Source of the DNA: Nitrospinaceae bacterium
GTDB lineage: Bacteria; Nitrospinota; Nitrospinia; Nitrospinales; VA-1
Length of the DNA: 64,000 nt
Direction: 5' to 3'
NCBI GenBank assembly: GCA_021604505.1
Contig: BQJC01000002.1
Span: 682,001 to 746,000 of the forward strand
In this document: one piece after another, positions 19,491-24,791 of the stretch
Layout of the letters: every line of letters begins with the position of its first letter
How positions within the stretch are numbered: the first letter of the stretch is position 1
Notes under the pieces: model-generated
The model's database searches: none
Told to the model about the DNA's origin: nothing
Seen by the model: the letters and a program-made list of their open reading frames with translations, nothing else
Position numbers and translations under genes: made by a program

Positions 19491-19910
19491 ATGTGTAAAT
19501 TTTCAGGAAAAATTTTAACGTTCGCAGTACTGGCTTTGTTTCTCAACGTTGGTATTGCCGTTGCCGATCCGGCCAACTCGGATTGGAACAACAGCTGGGG
19601 ATTTCCGTCTCCTTTTGAAAAAGCCAACTTGCTCGATCAAGCGATTGCTATTGAACTCGTTGAAGAGGACGGATTTTCCAACAAAACCAATTTTTATAAT
19701 TCCTATTCGGATGTCGTAGCCATCGGAAATCAGGTGAACATCGAAGGCAATGACAACAATGTTGGCGCTAACAACGATGGCAACGTAGCCGCGCAAAATA
19801 ACGGTGACGACATCAATCAAGAAGCTGGCGACGATTTTAACAGCCAAAATGCCGGCGACGATATAAACAACAACCAAAACGCTGGCGACGATATTAACAA
19901 CAACTTTTAA
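19491..19910 (+). CDS. Secreted Asn/Asp/Gln-rich repeat protein, candidate fibre subunit
   Basis: The 139-residue protein has a signal peptide (hydrophobic 8-23, cleavage after AVA at 25). After a linker, residues about 72-138 are low-complexity: AIGNQVNIEGNDNNVGANND, then units with the core (N/A)GDD(I/F)N: NNGDDINQ, EAGDDFNS, QNAGDDINNN, QNAGDDINNN. Asn/Gln at regular spacing with Gly resembles curlin repeats (SxxxxxQxGxxNxA), but the match is not exact. The next gene is a CsgG-family secretion lipoprotein, 45 bases on, which strongly suggests it is an exported fibre-forming substrate. AAAAAGAGAGG precedes the ATG. Confidence 0.75.
   Translation: MCKFSGKILTFAVLALFLNVGIAVADPANSDWNNSWGFPSPFEKANLLDQAIAIELVEEDGFSNKTNFYNSYSDVVAIGNQVNIEGNDNNVGANNDGNVAAQNNGDDINQEAGDDFNSQNAGDDINNNQNAGDDINNNF
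19845..19904 (+). repeat. Tandem 30-base coding repeat
   Basis: Two adjacent 30-base units at 19845-19874 and 19875-19904 differ at few positions and both encode QNAGDDINNN. Two more degenerate units lie just upstream. They are the DNA of the repeat domain, probably expanded by slippage or recombination. Confidence 0.8.
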
Positions 19911-19955
19911 TTTAAAAACCAATATCAACTACGCGTGTCAAAGGAGGCGTTCAAC

Positions 19956-20831
19956 ATGTTCAACAAGAATTTTAAAAAGCTAATACTCGCTATTAGCCTG
20001 TTAGTTCTGGGAAGCGGTTGCGCCGCAACCACTCCCTTTAAGGAAGATATGAAATTGACGGAAGGTCCCAAACCCGTCACTCAGATCATGACTCCTTACG
20101 ACTCTTTGCTTTCCTGCCTGAGCTCGACTTATTTGGGCAAAAAAGCCAGCATCGGTGTCGGTGCGGTCAGTGACGAAACCGGTAAGTTTTCCATTTCCGA
20201 TTCTGGGAACGGAAAATTCGTGACCCAGGCCGCAGGCGATATCGTTCAAAGTGCCTTGCTGCAGTCCAAAGTGGTCAAAGTGGTCAACCGTCGCGATCCT
20301 CGTGTCATGAAGTTGGAAGCCGCTTTCGGTGGAAAAGTAAAATGGATCAAGTCTGACTATCACATCACAGGCTCCATCAACAGCCTGGATTTCCTTCCTG
20401 GTGGTGGTATCGACGCCAGCGTCTATGGCGTAGGCGCCAAATATCGTCAACATCGCATGTTGATAGGTATGGATCTGTTCTTAACCGATACCCGTACGTC
20501 TGAAGTCATTGCGCATTCTTCAATTTTCAAACAGGTCGTTGCCGACGAAATTGGCGCCAACATTGGAAGGTTTTTTGGCGACATTTTGGTTGCGGTTGAT
20601 TTGGGTGAACAGCATCGGGAAGCCGTCCATTTTGCTTTGCGCAATATGCTGAAAATGGCCGTCTACGAGATGATGTCTGATCTTTACGATATCGACTCCA
20701 AATCCTGCTCTACCATCATTGAAAAGGTGGAAGGCGTGGAAGATGCTTCTCCAACTGCGGCGCCGGTTGCGGCTACCACCAGCGTTGAGCCGTTTGACGG
20801 TGAAGCAGAATGGCAAAAAGTATCGTTTTAA
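19956..20831 (+). CDS. csgG: CsgG/HfaB-family outer-membrane secretion lipoprotein
   Basis: CsgG forms the nonameric outer-membrane channel that exports curlin. The 291 residues start with a lipoprotein signal (hydrophobic 9-18, LGSGC with Cys22 as lipid anchor). ATG 19956 is chosen because AAAGGAGG lies eight bases before it; the in-frame GTG at 19935 sits upstream of that ribosome site. Family features are the block after the lipobox (PYDSLLSCL), IGVGAVSDETGKFS, the helix around residues 85-110 (GDIVQSALLQSKVVKVVNRR) and DLFLTDTRTSEVIAHSSIFKQV. Caulobacter HfaB, which anchors holdfast, is the same family. No CsgE or CsgF accessory gene is visible nearby. Confidence 0.85.
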   Translation: MFNKNFKKLILAISLLVLGSGCAATTPFKEDMKLTEGPKPVTQIMTPYDSLLSCLSSTYLGKKASIGVGAVSDETGKFSISDSGNGKFVTQAAGDIVQSALLQSKVVKVVNRRDPRVMKLEAAFGGKVKWIKSDYHITGSINSLDFLPGGGIDASVYGVGAKYRQHRMLIGMDLFLTDTRTSEVIAHSSIFKQVVADEIGANIGRFFGDILVAVDLGEQHREAVHFALRNMLKMAVYEMMSDLYDIDSKSCSTIIEKVEGVEDASPTAAPVAATTSVEPFDGEAEWQKVSF

Positions 20832-20915
20832 TCCGAACATTCGATCTTGGGATCGGATCACTTTTGTAAATCAGCAGGAGTAGTTTTTTCACCACTTTAA
20901 TTTAGGAGATTCATC

Positions 20916-21470
20916 ATGCAGAAGAAAATTTTGTCCGCAGTATTGTCGCTTTTCCTGGTAGGTTCCGCCAGCTCAGCGTTTGCTGGATTCTATGACATCG
21001 ATGTGGATGTCGACGATTCTTTCAACACCGAATACGATGTTGATATCAATAAATCTTGGGACATCGATGTTGATATCGACAAGACCAAAACCATCACCAA
21101 GACCAAAACCATCACTAAGACCTACGATAACGATGTGTTCGATGTAAACAACGATGATGGAGCGGTTCTCAACCAGTACGTCAACGGCGGCCTGGGTGGT
21201 CCTTATTTGAGTGAGGGTAGCCGTGGTGGCATGCGTATGCCGACTGCAGAGATGAGCGGCAATGTTGCATCTCAGGTTAACAACGCAGTGGGCGATGTAA
21301 GTTCAATCGCGATTGGCAACATGCTTTCTATCGATGATTCTTATAACAGCTCTCGGACCTCCACCCGAACATCTACCCGCAGCCTGGGTCTCGATTTAGA
21401 CGTTGAAATCGAGGACAGCTTCAACACGGAGGACAGCTTCAATGGTCCTTCTCTGTGGCCTGCTAACTAA
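20916..21470 (+). CDS. Secreted Asp-rich DSFN-block protein, first tandem copy
   Basis: The 184-residue protein has a signal peptide cleaved after AFA (23). The mature chain has a mirrored layout: an acidic block (24-55, DIDVDVDDSFN), a Lys/Thr linker (56-70, KTKTITKTKTITKT), DNDVFDVNNDDGAVLNQYVN, a conserved core at about 112-140 (MSGNVASQVNNAVGDVSSIA), an Arg/Ser/Thr linker (146-156) and a second acidic block with two more DSFN motifs. AGGAG lies before the ATG at 20916. It is downstream of the CsgG-like gene and is very similar to the next gene. I know no named family; the core is reminiscent of curlin-type N/Q/S/G repeats. Likely an exported surface or fibre protein. Confidence 0.75.
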   Translation: MQKKILSAVLSLFLVGSASSAFAGFYDIDVDVDDSFNTEYDVDINKSWDIDVDIDKTKTITKTKTITKTYDNDVFDVNNDDGAVLNQYVNGGLGGPYLSEGSRGGMRMPTAEMSGNVASQVNNAVGDVSSIAIGNMLSIDDSYNSSRTSTRTSTRSLGLDLDVEIEDSFNTEDSFNGPSLWPAN

Positions 21471-21514
21471 TTGGGTGAATTGAGAGATTTTTCAGTAATA
21501 ACAGTTCAATCAGC

Positions 21515-21544
21515 GCGGCAGGGGGCGAAACATCCCCTTGTCGC
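21515..21544 (+). promoter_or_regulatory. Intercistronic hairpin between the two paralogues
   Basis: GCGGCAGGGGG pairs with CCCCTTGTCGC around an 8-base loop, an 11-bp stem with one G-U or mismatch step. No U-run follows. The sequence resembles the terminator stem at 22184-22212 (CGGCAAGGAG), as expected if the gene and its 3' flank were duplicated together. It may attenuate or stabilise the message. Confidence 0.45.
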
Positions 21545-21569
21545 TCACATTAAACTCAGGAGAATTATC

Positions 21570-22139
21570 ATGCAGAAGAAAATTTTATCCGTAGTATTGT
21601 CGCTTTTTCTGGCAGGTTCCGCGAGCTCAGCGTTCGCTGGATTCTATGACATAGATGTCGACATCGACGATTCTTTCAACAAAGAAGTAGATGTTGATAT
21701 CAATAAATCTTGGGATATCGATGTGGATGTTGACAAGACCAAGATCATCAACAAAACCAAAACCATCAATAAGACTTATGACAACGACGTGTTCGATGTT
21801 GACAATGACGATGGTGCGGTTCTTAACCAGTATGTCAATGGTGCTCCGATGGGCGATTTGTACTCCTTCCAGGAAAACGGACCCAGGGGCATGGGTCTGC
21901 CGACTGCGCAGATGAGCGGCAATGTTGCATCTCAGGTTAACAACGCGACAGGTGACATAAGCTCAATTGCGATTGGCAACATGCTTTCCATTGAAGACTC
22001 TTTCAACCGGACCCGGAATTCCACCCGGAATCATACCCGGAATCTGGACATCGATGTAGACGTAGATATCGAGGACAGCTTCAATGTGGATGATAGCTTC
22101 AATCAGTCTGGCTTTCCCGGCGGACTGCAACTCCCGTAA
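21570..22139 (+). CDS. Secreted Asp-rich DSFN-block protein, second tandem copy
   Basis: This 189-residue paralogue follows the first by 100 bases. I use ATG 21570 (CAGGAGAATTATC upstream); the longer frame from 21471 is intergenic. Signal peptide, acidic block (DIDVDIDDSFN), Lys/Thr linker (KTKIINKTKTINKT), the core MSGNVASQVNNATGDISSIA, an Arg/Asn/Thr linker and a final acidic block with two DSFN motifs all occur in the same order. The segment between the NQYVNG motif and the core differs most. High DNA similarity of the 5' ends shows a recent tandem duplication. A strong terminator follows. Confidence 0.75.
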   Translation: MQKKILSVVLSLFLAGSASSAFAGFYDIDVDIDDSFNKEVDVDINKSWDIDVDVDKTKIINKTKTINKTYDNDVFDVDNDDGAVLNQYVNGAPMGDLYSFQENGPRGMGLPTAQMSGNVASQVNNATGDISSIAIGNMLSIEDSFNRTRNSTRNHTRNLDIDVDVDIEDSFNVDDSFNQSGFPGGLQLP

Positions 22140-22183
22140 GTTGAATCAGAACGCTTGATTCTTTAGTTAAGGTAAAACGAGTG

Positions 22184-22226
22184 CGGCAAGGAGATGCAAT
22201 ATCTCCTTGCCGTTTCCTTTTTTTTC
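22184..22226 (+). terminator. Rho-independent terminator of the curli-like operon
   Basis: CGGCAAGGAGAT (22184-22195) and ATCTCCTTGCCG (22201-22212) form a perfect 12-bp stem with a GCAAT loop, followed by TTTCCTTTTTTTT. This is the strongest terminator seen in the window. Confidence 0.9.
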
Positions 22227-22262: not shown

Positions 22263-22727
22263 TCAGCGTCCGAAACCAACCGCCCCTCCGCGAAAAAAGG
22301 TAAAGCTCCCTATGTTCACACCGACCCCGCCTCGAAAAATGGACCCTGAGTTAAAAACCGGAAACGAAGCGATAAAAGGAAATGAGGAATTAATAGGGAC
22401 TAATTGGTTATTCACTACAAAAAACCCTCTATTGGTTCCAAAATCCCCGTGGTGATGGGAGCTTATCCAGTAATAATCGGTAAGGGCTGCATAACTCTCT
22501 TCGCCATAATATCCTCCCCCATAGTACCCGGTGTTGGAACCGGAACTTTCAGCATACAATCTCTCGTCGATTTTGAATTCCGCTTCCTCTTCGGCAACCG
22601 GAGCGGGCTGAATCGCCGCAGGTGTTTCATCGCTTATTCCATGGGCGCCGTCAAACGCGCTGGATGGGGCGCCGGCAAATGCAGGAGATGTGAACAGCAA
22701 AATCATGATAGTGACTAGATATTTCAT
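22263..22727 (-). CDS. Secreted Gly/Tyr/Phe-rich protein
   Basis: I use ATG 22727 (GAGGG upstream), giving 154 residues with a signal peptide ending AFA (18). The mature chain has an Ala/Pro/Glu-rich segment, then Gly/Tyr runs (NTGYYGGGYYGEESY), a HHHGDF stretch and a Phe/Gly-rich C terminus (VGVNIGSFTFFRGGAVGFGR). It is convergent with the curli-like operon across the terminator at 22184-22226. Composition suits a structural surface protein. I know no family; a link with the fibre system is inference from position. Confidence 0.6.
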   Translation of the reverse strand: MKYLVTIMILLFTSPAFAGAPSSAFDGAHGISDETPAAIQPAPVAEEEAEFKIDERLYAESSGSNTGYYGGGYYGEESYAALTDYYWISSHHHGDFGTNRGFFVVNNQLVPINSSFPFIASFPVFNSGSIFRGGVGVNIGSFTFFRGGAVGFGR

Positions 22728-24098: not shown

Positions 24099-24791
24099 AT
24101 GAATCCGTCCATAGATAAAAGAAAAATGCCGCGAATGCAGGTGGATGTGCCGGCTTGCATTTTTCTGGGTGTCTCTAAAACCGCTTCAGATGTAAGCGTT
24201 AAAAACCTGAGCATTCACGGTCTATCCTTCCGGTCCAGAAAATATTTTTCGCAAGGAACTCCATTCCAATTGATATTTTCCAGCCAAAACGCAGGGCGGA
24301 ATGTAAAGAAAATACAGGCGGTGGTGCTGCGTTGTGAACCCCTGAAGGGTTTGTCCTCTGATAGATTTAAAATAGGAGCTAAATTTTTGTTTGAGTCTAA
24401 CATGTTTGGAGAGACAGAAAACCATTCAACCGCGGAGAAAAAACCCTCCGCTTTGCAACCCATCCACGTCCAGCGCTCCGTTGAGATGACTCGTCACAAC
24501 AAGGGGGTTCGTCTGAAGGCCCAGGTAGGCAATAAAAGCGCGTTGTCTGAACCTGTCCGTGCTGTCAGAAAAGGAGAGATCAGGGCAGAATTCTTTCAGT
24601 TCATACAAACCTCCCAAAGTCAGGAAACGGTTCACACTTTCATAAAAGTGAGGGAATCCCGTATCACCGACATAAATCCATCCACCCTTTCTACTCCGAT
24701 ACTTCCGGAAGAAATCGTCCCCGGAAATTCAATGCCTGAAATGTCTGATGGAGAGAACCCGTTTGCAAAACGATTACCCAACCTTCGCTAA
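24099..24791 (+). CDS. PilZ-domain protein with disordered C-terminal extension
   Basis: Residues 7-110 have the PilZ pattern: basic RKMPRMQVDVPA (the RxxxR-type c-di-GMP contact) and, about 25 residues on, VKNLSIHGLSF (the (D/N)xSxxG contact). The remaining 120 residues are low in hydrophobics and probably flexible. PilZ proteins read the second messenger c-di-GMP and control motility, adhesion or exopolysaccharide. GGGGA lies before the ATG. It sits between the fibre-like operon and a histidine kinase gene, which would suit a surface-attachment role. Confidence 0.75.
   Translation: MNPSIDKRKMPRMQVDVPACIFLGVSKTASDVSVKNLSIHGLSFRSRKYFSQGTPFQLIFSSQNAGRNVKKIQAVVLRCEPLKGLSSDRFKIGAKFLFESNMFGETENHSTAEKKPSALQPIHVQRSVEMTRHNKGVRLKAQVGNKSALSEPVRAVRKGEIRAEFFQFIQTSQSQETVHTFIKVRESRITDINPSTLSTPILPEEIVPGNSMPEMSDGENPFAKRLPNLR

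Follow-up and report, generated by a model that had tools for sequence, protein, structure and literature searches.

Organization of the locus

The window analyzed here, a stretch of 64,000 nucleotides, is part of contig C2 of a 3.6 Mb Nitrospinaceae genome. It contains a short operon, a terminator and a convergent gene, with the following features (coordinates are those of the window):

19491-19910, plus strand: ORF1, secreted protein of 139 aa, in the HfaA position
19956-20831, plus strand: exporter, assigned to the CsgG/HfaB family of outer-membrane lipoprotein channels, 291 aa, best start ATG 19956
20916-21470, plus strand: ORF3, secreted acidic paralog 1, 184 aa, presumed substrate in the HfaD position
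21570-22139, plus strand: ORF4, secreted acidic paralog 2, 189 aa
22183-22226, plus strand: intrinsic terminator, a 14-pair stem (22183-22213) followed by a T-rich run
22263-22727, minus strand: convergent secreted protein, 154 aa, probable fifth component

An earlier, sequence-only reading of this DNA had described four genes in order on one strand, ending in a strong terminator. Inspection of the sequence, the open reading frames and a terminator scan confirmed this description, as all four genes and the terminator are present on the plus strand in the order given. A signal peptide could be read at the start of all four operon proteins. Of the 10 sites resembling terminators, against an expectation of 3.3 from shuffled sequence, the one at 22183-22213 was the strongest. 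A longer ORF for ORF4, beginning with TTG, was rejected as an artifact of mechanical start choice. The gene list of the earlier reading was right for these four genes, but it overlooked the convergent secreted gene on the minus strand.

Two minor features were also seen. The gap between ORF3 and ORF4 contains, as judged by eye, a hairpin-forming sequence (21510-21555) with a stem like that of the final terminator and without a T run, possibly an mRNA-stabilizing or processing element. Downstream of the operon, a PilZ-domain (c-di-GMP binding) protein is encoded at 24099-24791 (plus strand), in the same place as in two relatives; it could link attachment with c-di-GMP signaling.

Family and branch of the exporter

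The exporter matched the Pfam CsgG model (PF03783) with 49.4 bits, and thus passed the curated cut-off of 20.8. It has the lipobox LGSGC, with cysteine C22 after LGSG, and both membrane-hairpin segments of CsgG could be aligned between the exporter and the E. coli protein, a comparison made at the sequence level. Judged by family cut-off, lipobox and hairpin segments, we classify it as a CsgG-superfamily outer-membrane channel.

Among NCBIfam models, HfaB was the best match, with 94.6 bits versus 24.8 bits for the E. coli-type CsgG model PRK15184, although the score did not reach HfaB equivalog status (cut-off 300). In a maximum-likelihood tree, the window exporter fell into a clade of 11 rows with support 100/100, made up of five Nitrospinaceae sequences, five alphaproteobacterial sequences and the Pacificitalea sequence. 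This clade joined Caulobacter-type HfaB and Variovorax-type proteins (23 rows, support 100/99). Outside this HfaB-type group lay the CsgG of E. coli and also those CsgGs of the window genome that are linked to curlin. With the reservation that the root is uncertain, since the tree was rooted with the long-branched E. coli CsgG, the exporter is placed in the HfaB (holdfast-anchor) branch and apart from curli CsgG. Identity among the exporters of Nitrospinaceae carriers was 82-87%. Alphaproteobacteria hold relatives at about 51% identity, and more distant ones were found in other alphaproteobacterial genomes and plasmids.

Distribution and conserved gene order

Among 77 genomes from the phylum, 5 (the window genome included), belonging to two genera, carry the exporter, and the whole set is absent from some close relatives. 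We compared 11 loci, namely the window, four from other Nitrospinaceae, five from alphaproteobacterial genomes and one from a Pacificitalea plasmid. The order gene-1-like protein, exporter, secreted protein was found in all of them, and in the window and its relatives this succession of a small secreted protein, an exporter and a secreted protein is the order of hfaA-hfaB-hfaD. The earlier proposal of an export operon with unfamiliar substrates is borne out by the conservation of this order in ten relatives. The reading had also named gene order in related genomes as a point to check, and here gene 1, exporter and a secreted gene were kept, but tandem paralogs were found in only one of the four close relatives, which goes halfway toward one of the outcomes that the reading had said would refute it.

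The window and the related loci L010 and L013 share their flanking genes on both sides, apart from an asparagine synthase that is missing in L010. Genome G001 was searched as a possible empty site that might date gain or loss of the operon, but no synteny was found.

The two closest relatives among the Alphaproteobacteria have a further member of the gene-1 head family, which is convergent to the operon (L014:2179-2532 and L015:2369-2791, both on the minus strand) and has a different, non-repeat tail.

Window paralogs and the proteins that replace them

ORF3 and ORF4 are 76% identical at the protein level and 78% identical at the DNA level, with net charges of -18 and -19, respectively. ORF3 has DxDVDDSFN-type motifs and a GNVASQVNNAVGDVSSIAIGNMLSI core. 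Neither protein matched any model in Pfam or NCBIfam, and neither matched the HfaD model. HPPK/FolK-type matches of ORF4 (E 0.03-0.08, short of the cut-off) were rejected as chance. AlphaFold2 gave no confident structure for ORF3 together with its four relatives (mean pLDDT 36). Without their signal peptides, the paralogs matched nothing by profile, and in these comparisons the signal peptide was the sole part that they had in common with the repeat protein of the relatives. ORF3 and ORF4 are protein kinds so far undescribed.

The exporter is followed by two such short acidic paralogs in the window and by three in L010, but by one long repeat protein in L011, L012 and L013. Among 60 genomes, the paralog profile matched only the window genome (G000) and G003, and the repeat profile only G002, G004 and G008; both substrate families were found solely beside the exporter. 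As the flanks of the window, L010 and L013 are the same, it seems that the exporter was conserved while the substrate genes next to it were exchanged in place.

These data also bear on the question whether the genes form a system at all. If the neighborhood were accidental, the CsgG-like protein would have some other envelope role and the secreted genes would merely be adjacent to it. The set is missing from some close relatives and is thus not essential, as this explanation would allow. An accident is nevertheless highly improbable in view of the same order in ten relatives from two phyla, the occurrence of two substrate families only beside the exporter, and the single strong terminator at the operon end.

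The repeat protein of L011 has a period of 47 residues, with a mean identity of 42% between repeats. AlphaFold2 modeled it, from three sequences, as a beta-solenoid with a mean pLDDT of 89.5. AlphaFold2 is known to predict beta-solenoids too readily when repeats are near-perfect (PMC11795689), a worry that the repeat identity of 42% should lessen for the L011 model without removing it. A Foldseek search of the PDB with this model returned nothing that reached E 0.001. The repeat proteins of L011 and L012 matched the HfaD model weakly (E 9e-5 and 1.1e-4, 22 bits against a cut-off of 100), in the case of L011 over 295 residues, and the L013 repeat protein did not match this model.

Relation to curli

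The operon had been called curli-like in the sequence-only reading. In the strict sense it is not; what it does contain is a pore of the CsgG family, and the curli system of Escherichia coli (CsgA, B, E, F, G) likewise has a CsgG-superfamily lipoprotein pore beside small secreted proteins. Curli differ from the window operon in their curlin repeats, in CsgE and CsgF, and in the branch of the CsgG family that they use. No window protein matched the curlin repeat (PF07012) or the Pfam models for CsgE and CsgF, and hhalign comparisons with E. coli CsgE and CsgF gave at most 0.3%. The genome does contain curlin repeats, but at a separate locus. All 10 repeat matches are confined to contig C1, at about 287-294 kb, and two of the three further CsgG-family genes of the genome lie among them, at 289-292 kb.

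It could still be argued that the operon is genuinely curli-type, an amyloid system whose curlins have diverged very far and in which CsgG would export amyloid subunits to fibers nucleated by ORF1. Such a system would have a pore of the CsgG superfamily, small secreted proteins rich in Asn and Gly, and tandem paralogs that recall csgB-csgA, all of which are present; moreover, bacterial CsgA (8c50) was among the non-significant Foldseek matches (E 0.45) of the solenoid model of a relative. Diverged curlins are nonetheless quite unlikely, given that the window lacks curlin repeats while the same genome has them beside two other CsgG genes, that similarity to CsgE or CsgF was not found, that the exporter branch is HfaB-type, and that AlphaFold2 yielded no confident structure of ORF3.

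The curlin locus itself (G000, contig C1, about 287000-294000) corresponds to L001, L002, L068 and L075-L082. Several of its proteins have curlin repeats. One of its two CsgG-family proteins, L001, is without an obvious lipobox, and the second hairpin region of this protein is shortened in the alignment.

ORF1 and its possible role as an adaptor

The mature part of ORF1 consists of 24% Asn and 13% Asp. A conserved N-terminal head, DWNNSWGFPSPFEKANLLDQAIAIELVEEDGF, is followed by a variable tail rich in Asn, Gly and Asp, with 'AIGNQVNI...NDGNVAAQ'. Residues D31, W32, N33, F38, E43, Q50 and A51 of the head are invariant among close members of the family. The head is laid out as a short aromatic loop followed by a likely helix, which recalls the N-terminal plug that CsgF forms in the pore of CsgG (PMC7304575). 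The likeness is no more than an analogy, and no sequence similarity between ORF1 and CsgF was found.

Members of the gene-1 family are encoded directly before the exporter in five Nitrospinaceae and five alphaproteobacterial genomes, and a protein judged similar by eye precedes the exporter on the Pacificitalea plasmid. With hhalign, the ORF1 family reached 97.7% and 85% against alphaproteobacterial gene-1 families, and 50-71% against HfaA-like small proteins (12-51% after removal of the signal peptides), compared with values near 0.1%, and at most 0.3%, in column-shuffled controls. It is mainly the tail motif (AIGN...V...N.G) that matches HfaA, whereas the heads differ: Caulobacter HfaA is without the head of ORF1, and ORF1 is without the DANGNR block of HfaA. 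ORF1 did not match the HfaA model. Together, the profile comparisons are suggestive of a weakly HfaA-like protein.

In L010, the tail of ORF1 resembles the downstream paralogs of the same locus (z 5.4-8.4). The effect was weak or absent in other genomes, and the idea that the tail matches the substrate type in every genome was rejected, since it is clear in L010 only.

The features of ORF1 have to be weighed against another explanation, according to which the HfaB-type pore would export a protein matrix without anchoring it, secreting free or loosely bound acidic proteins with no tie to a holdfast or polysaccharide. Acidic substrates without a predicted fold are expected of exposed matrix proteins, as is the presence of another repeat protein in their place in close relatives. 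The operon also has no polysaccharide export gene, or other polysaccharide gene; the sole Poly_export match of the genome is a generic gene that lies on the contig of the operon at a distance of about 664 kb. The combination of a constant head with a variable tail in ORF1 favors a tether over free release, and so does the resemblance of tail and paralogs in L010, which makes export without anchoring unlikely.

The convergent gene

The minus-strand gene at 22263-22727 encodes a protein with the signal MKYLVTIMILLFTSPAFA and the C-terminal region 'GGVGVNIGSFTF'. It was found in 4 of the 60 genomes searched (G000, G002, G003 and G008), all of them operon carriers, and always in the same place. 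In the fifth carrier, G004, the contig breaks off within the repeat gene. None of the operon-less genomes among the 60 had the convergent gene, and we consider it a probable fifth part of the system. The C-terminus of the convergent protein of L013 is extended by a sequence rich in Gly, Phe and His. A profile comparison lent no support (0.1%) to homology with the alphaproteobacterial convergent copy of gene 1.

Comparison with the Hfa system

HfaA and HfaD of Caulobacter need HfaB for reaching the cell surface, and an extracellular layer is formed by the two proteins (PMC6707917). HfaA-HfaB-HfaD of Caulobacter crescentus (PMC6707917), the anchor that holds the adhesive holdfast on the cell, resembles the window operon in the order of a small secreted protein, a CsgG-like lipoprotein and a further secreted protein; the window exporter falls into the HfaB branch, and the HfaD model matches the third proteins of two relatives. 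The differences are the HfaB score of the window exporter, which is below the equivalog cut-off, and the nature of the substrates, two acidic paralogs without an HfaD match. The earlier statement that no HfaA or HfaD is recognizable was too strong, considering the hfaA-hfaB-hfaD order, the weak HfaA likeness of gene 1 and the weak HfaD likeness of the third gene in two relatives; the window proteins themselves match neither model.

We favor, with a probability of roughly 0.6, the interpretation that the locus is a divergent Hfa-type secretion and surface-anchoring operon with replaceable substrates. It probably works like the Hfa system, yet by the curated HfaA, HfaB and HfaD models it is not a member of it. 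To our knowledge, no holdfast is known from Nitrospinota. In the favored Hfa-type scheme, the lipoprotein (19956-20831) would span the outer membrane as a CsgG-type pore and export ORF1 and the two paralogs. The head of ORF1 would stay at the channel mouth as an adaptor, in the position of HfaA, and the variable tail would bind or seed material of the downstream proteins. ORF3 and ORF4, in the position of HfaD, would then be the bulk surface adhesin or matrix, tethered via ORF1 and the pore, and the convergent gene would supply a further secreted partner. The exported material may serve adhesion, may form fibers and may be linked to a polysaccharide.

Uncharacterized CsgG/HfaB modules (Vibrio, Photobacterium, Variovorax and Pacificitalea plasmids; Alphaproteobacteria) are similar in that the exporter stands beside one small and one larger secreted protein; repeats of the ATAVGNN type are present in several of these modules. 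Unlike in the window, the small gene comes after the repeat gene in the Vibrio-type modules, and the substrates of the uncharacterized modules have no detectable sequence likeness to the window paralogs.

A broader generalization, possible but doubtful as a whole, is that pores of the HfaB type serve generally for the export of surface polymers that are interchangeable and of unrelated sequence, outside any holdfast. Export would proceed via a one-piece adaptor, with a channel-plug head and a polymer-seeding tail that would unite the roles of CsgF and CsgB, and the polymers would be the low-complexity acidic pair here and a beta-solenoid of 47-residue period in sister species.

As far as the literature searched shows, Hfa-type export has apparently been studied in Caulobacter and relatives only; neither curli of Nitrospina nor HfaB-family systems from beyond the Caulobacterales turned up in it. 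The kind of machine is already known, and the host phylum and the substrates are new. The occurrence of a version that is conserved, though patchy, both in Nitrospinota and on marine plasmids suggests an export family of HfaB-type pores that is broader than the holdfast, with swappable substrates. The operon provides candidates, accessible to testing, for how a family of marine nitrite oxidizers attaches to surfaces, and it offers a comparative handle on the roles of HfaA and HfaD.

The uncharacterized HfaB-type modules on plasmids of Vibrio alginolyticus (L084), Photobacterium (L086) and Variovorax (L085) have, besides the exporter, two secreted proteins, of which one is small and the other carries ATAVGNN-type repeats. 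The repeat protein of the Variovorax plasmid is an S-layer family protein.
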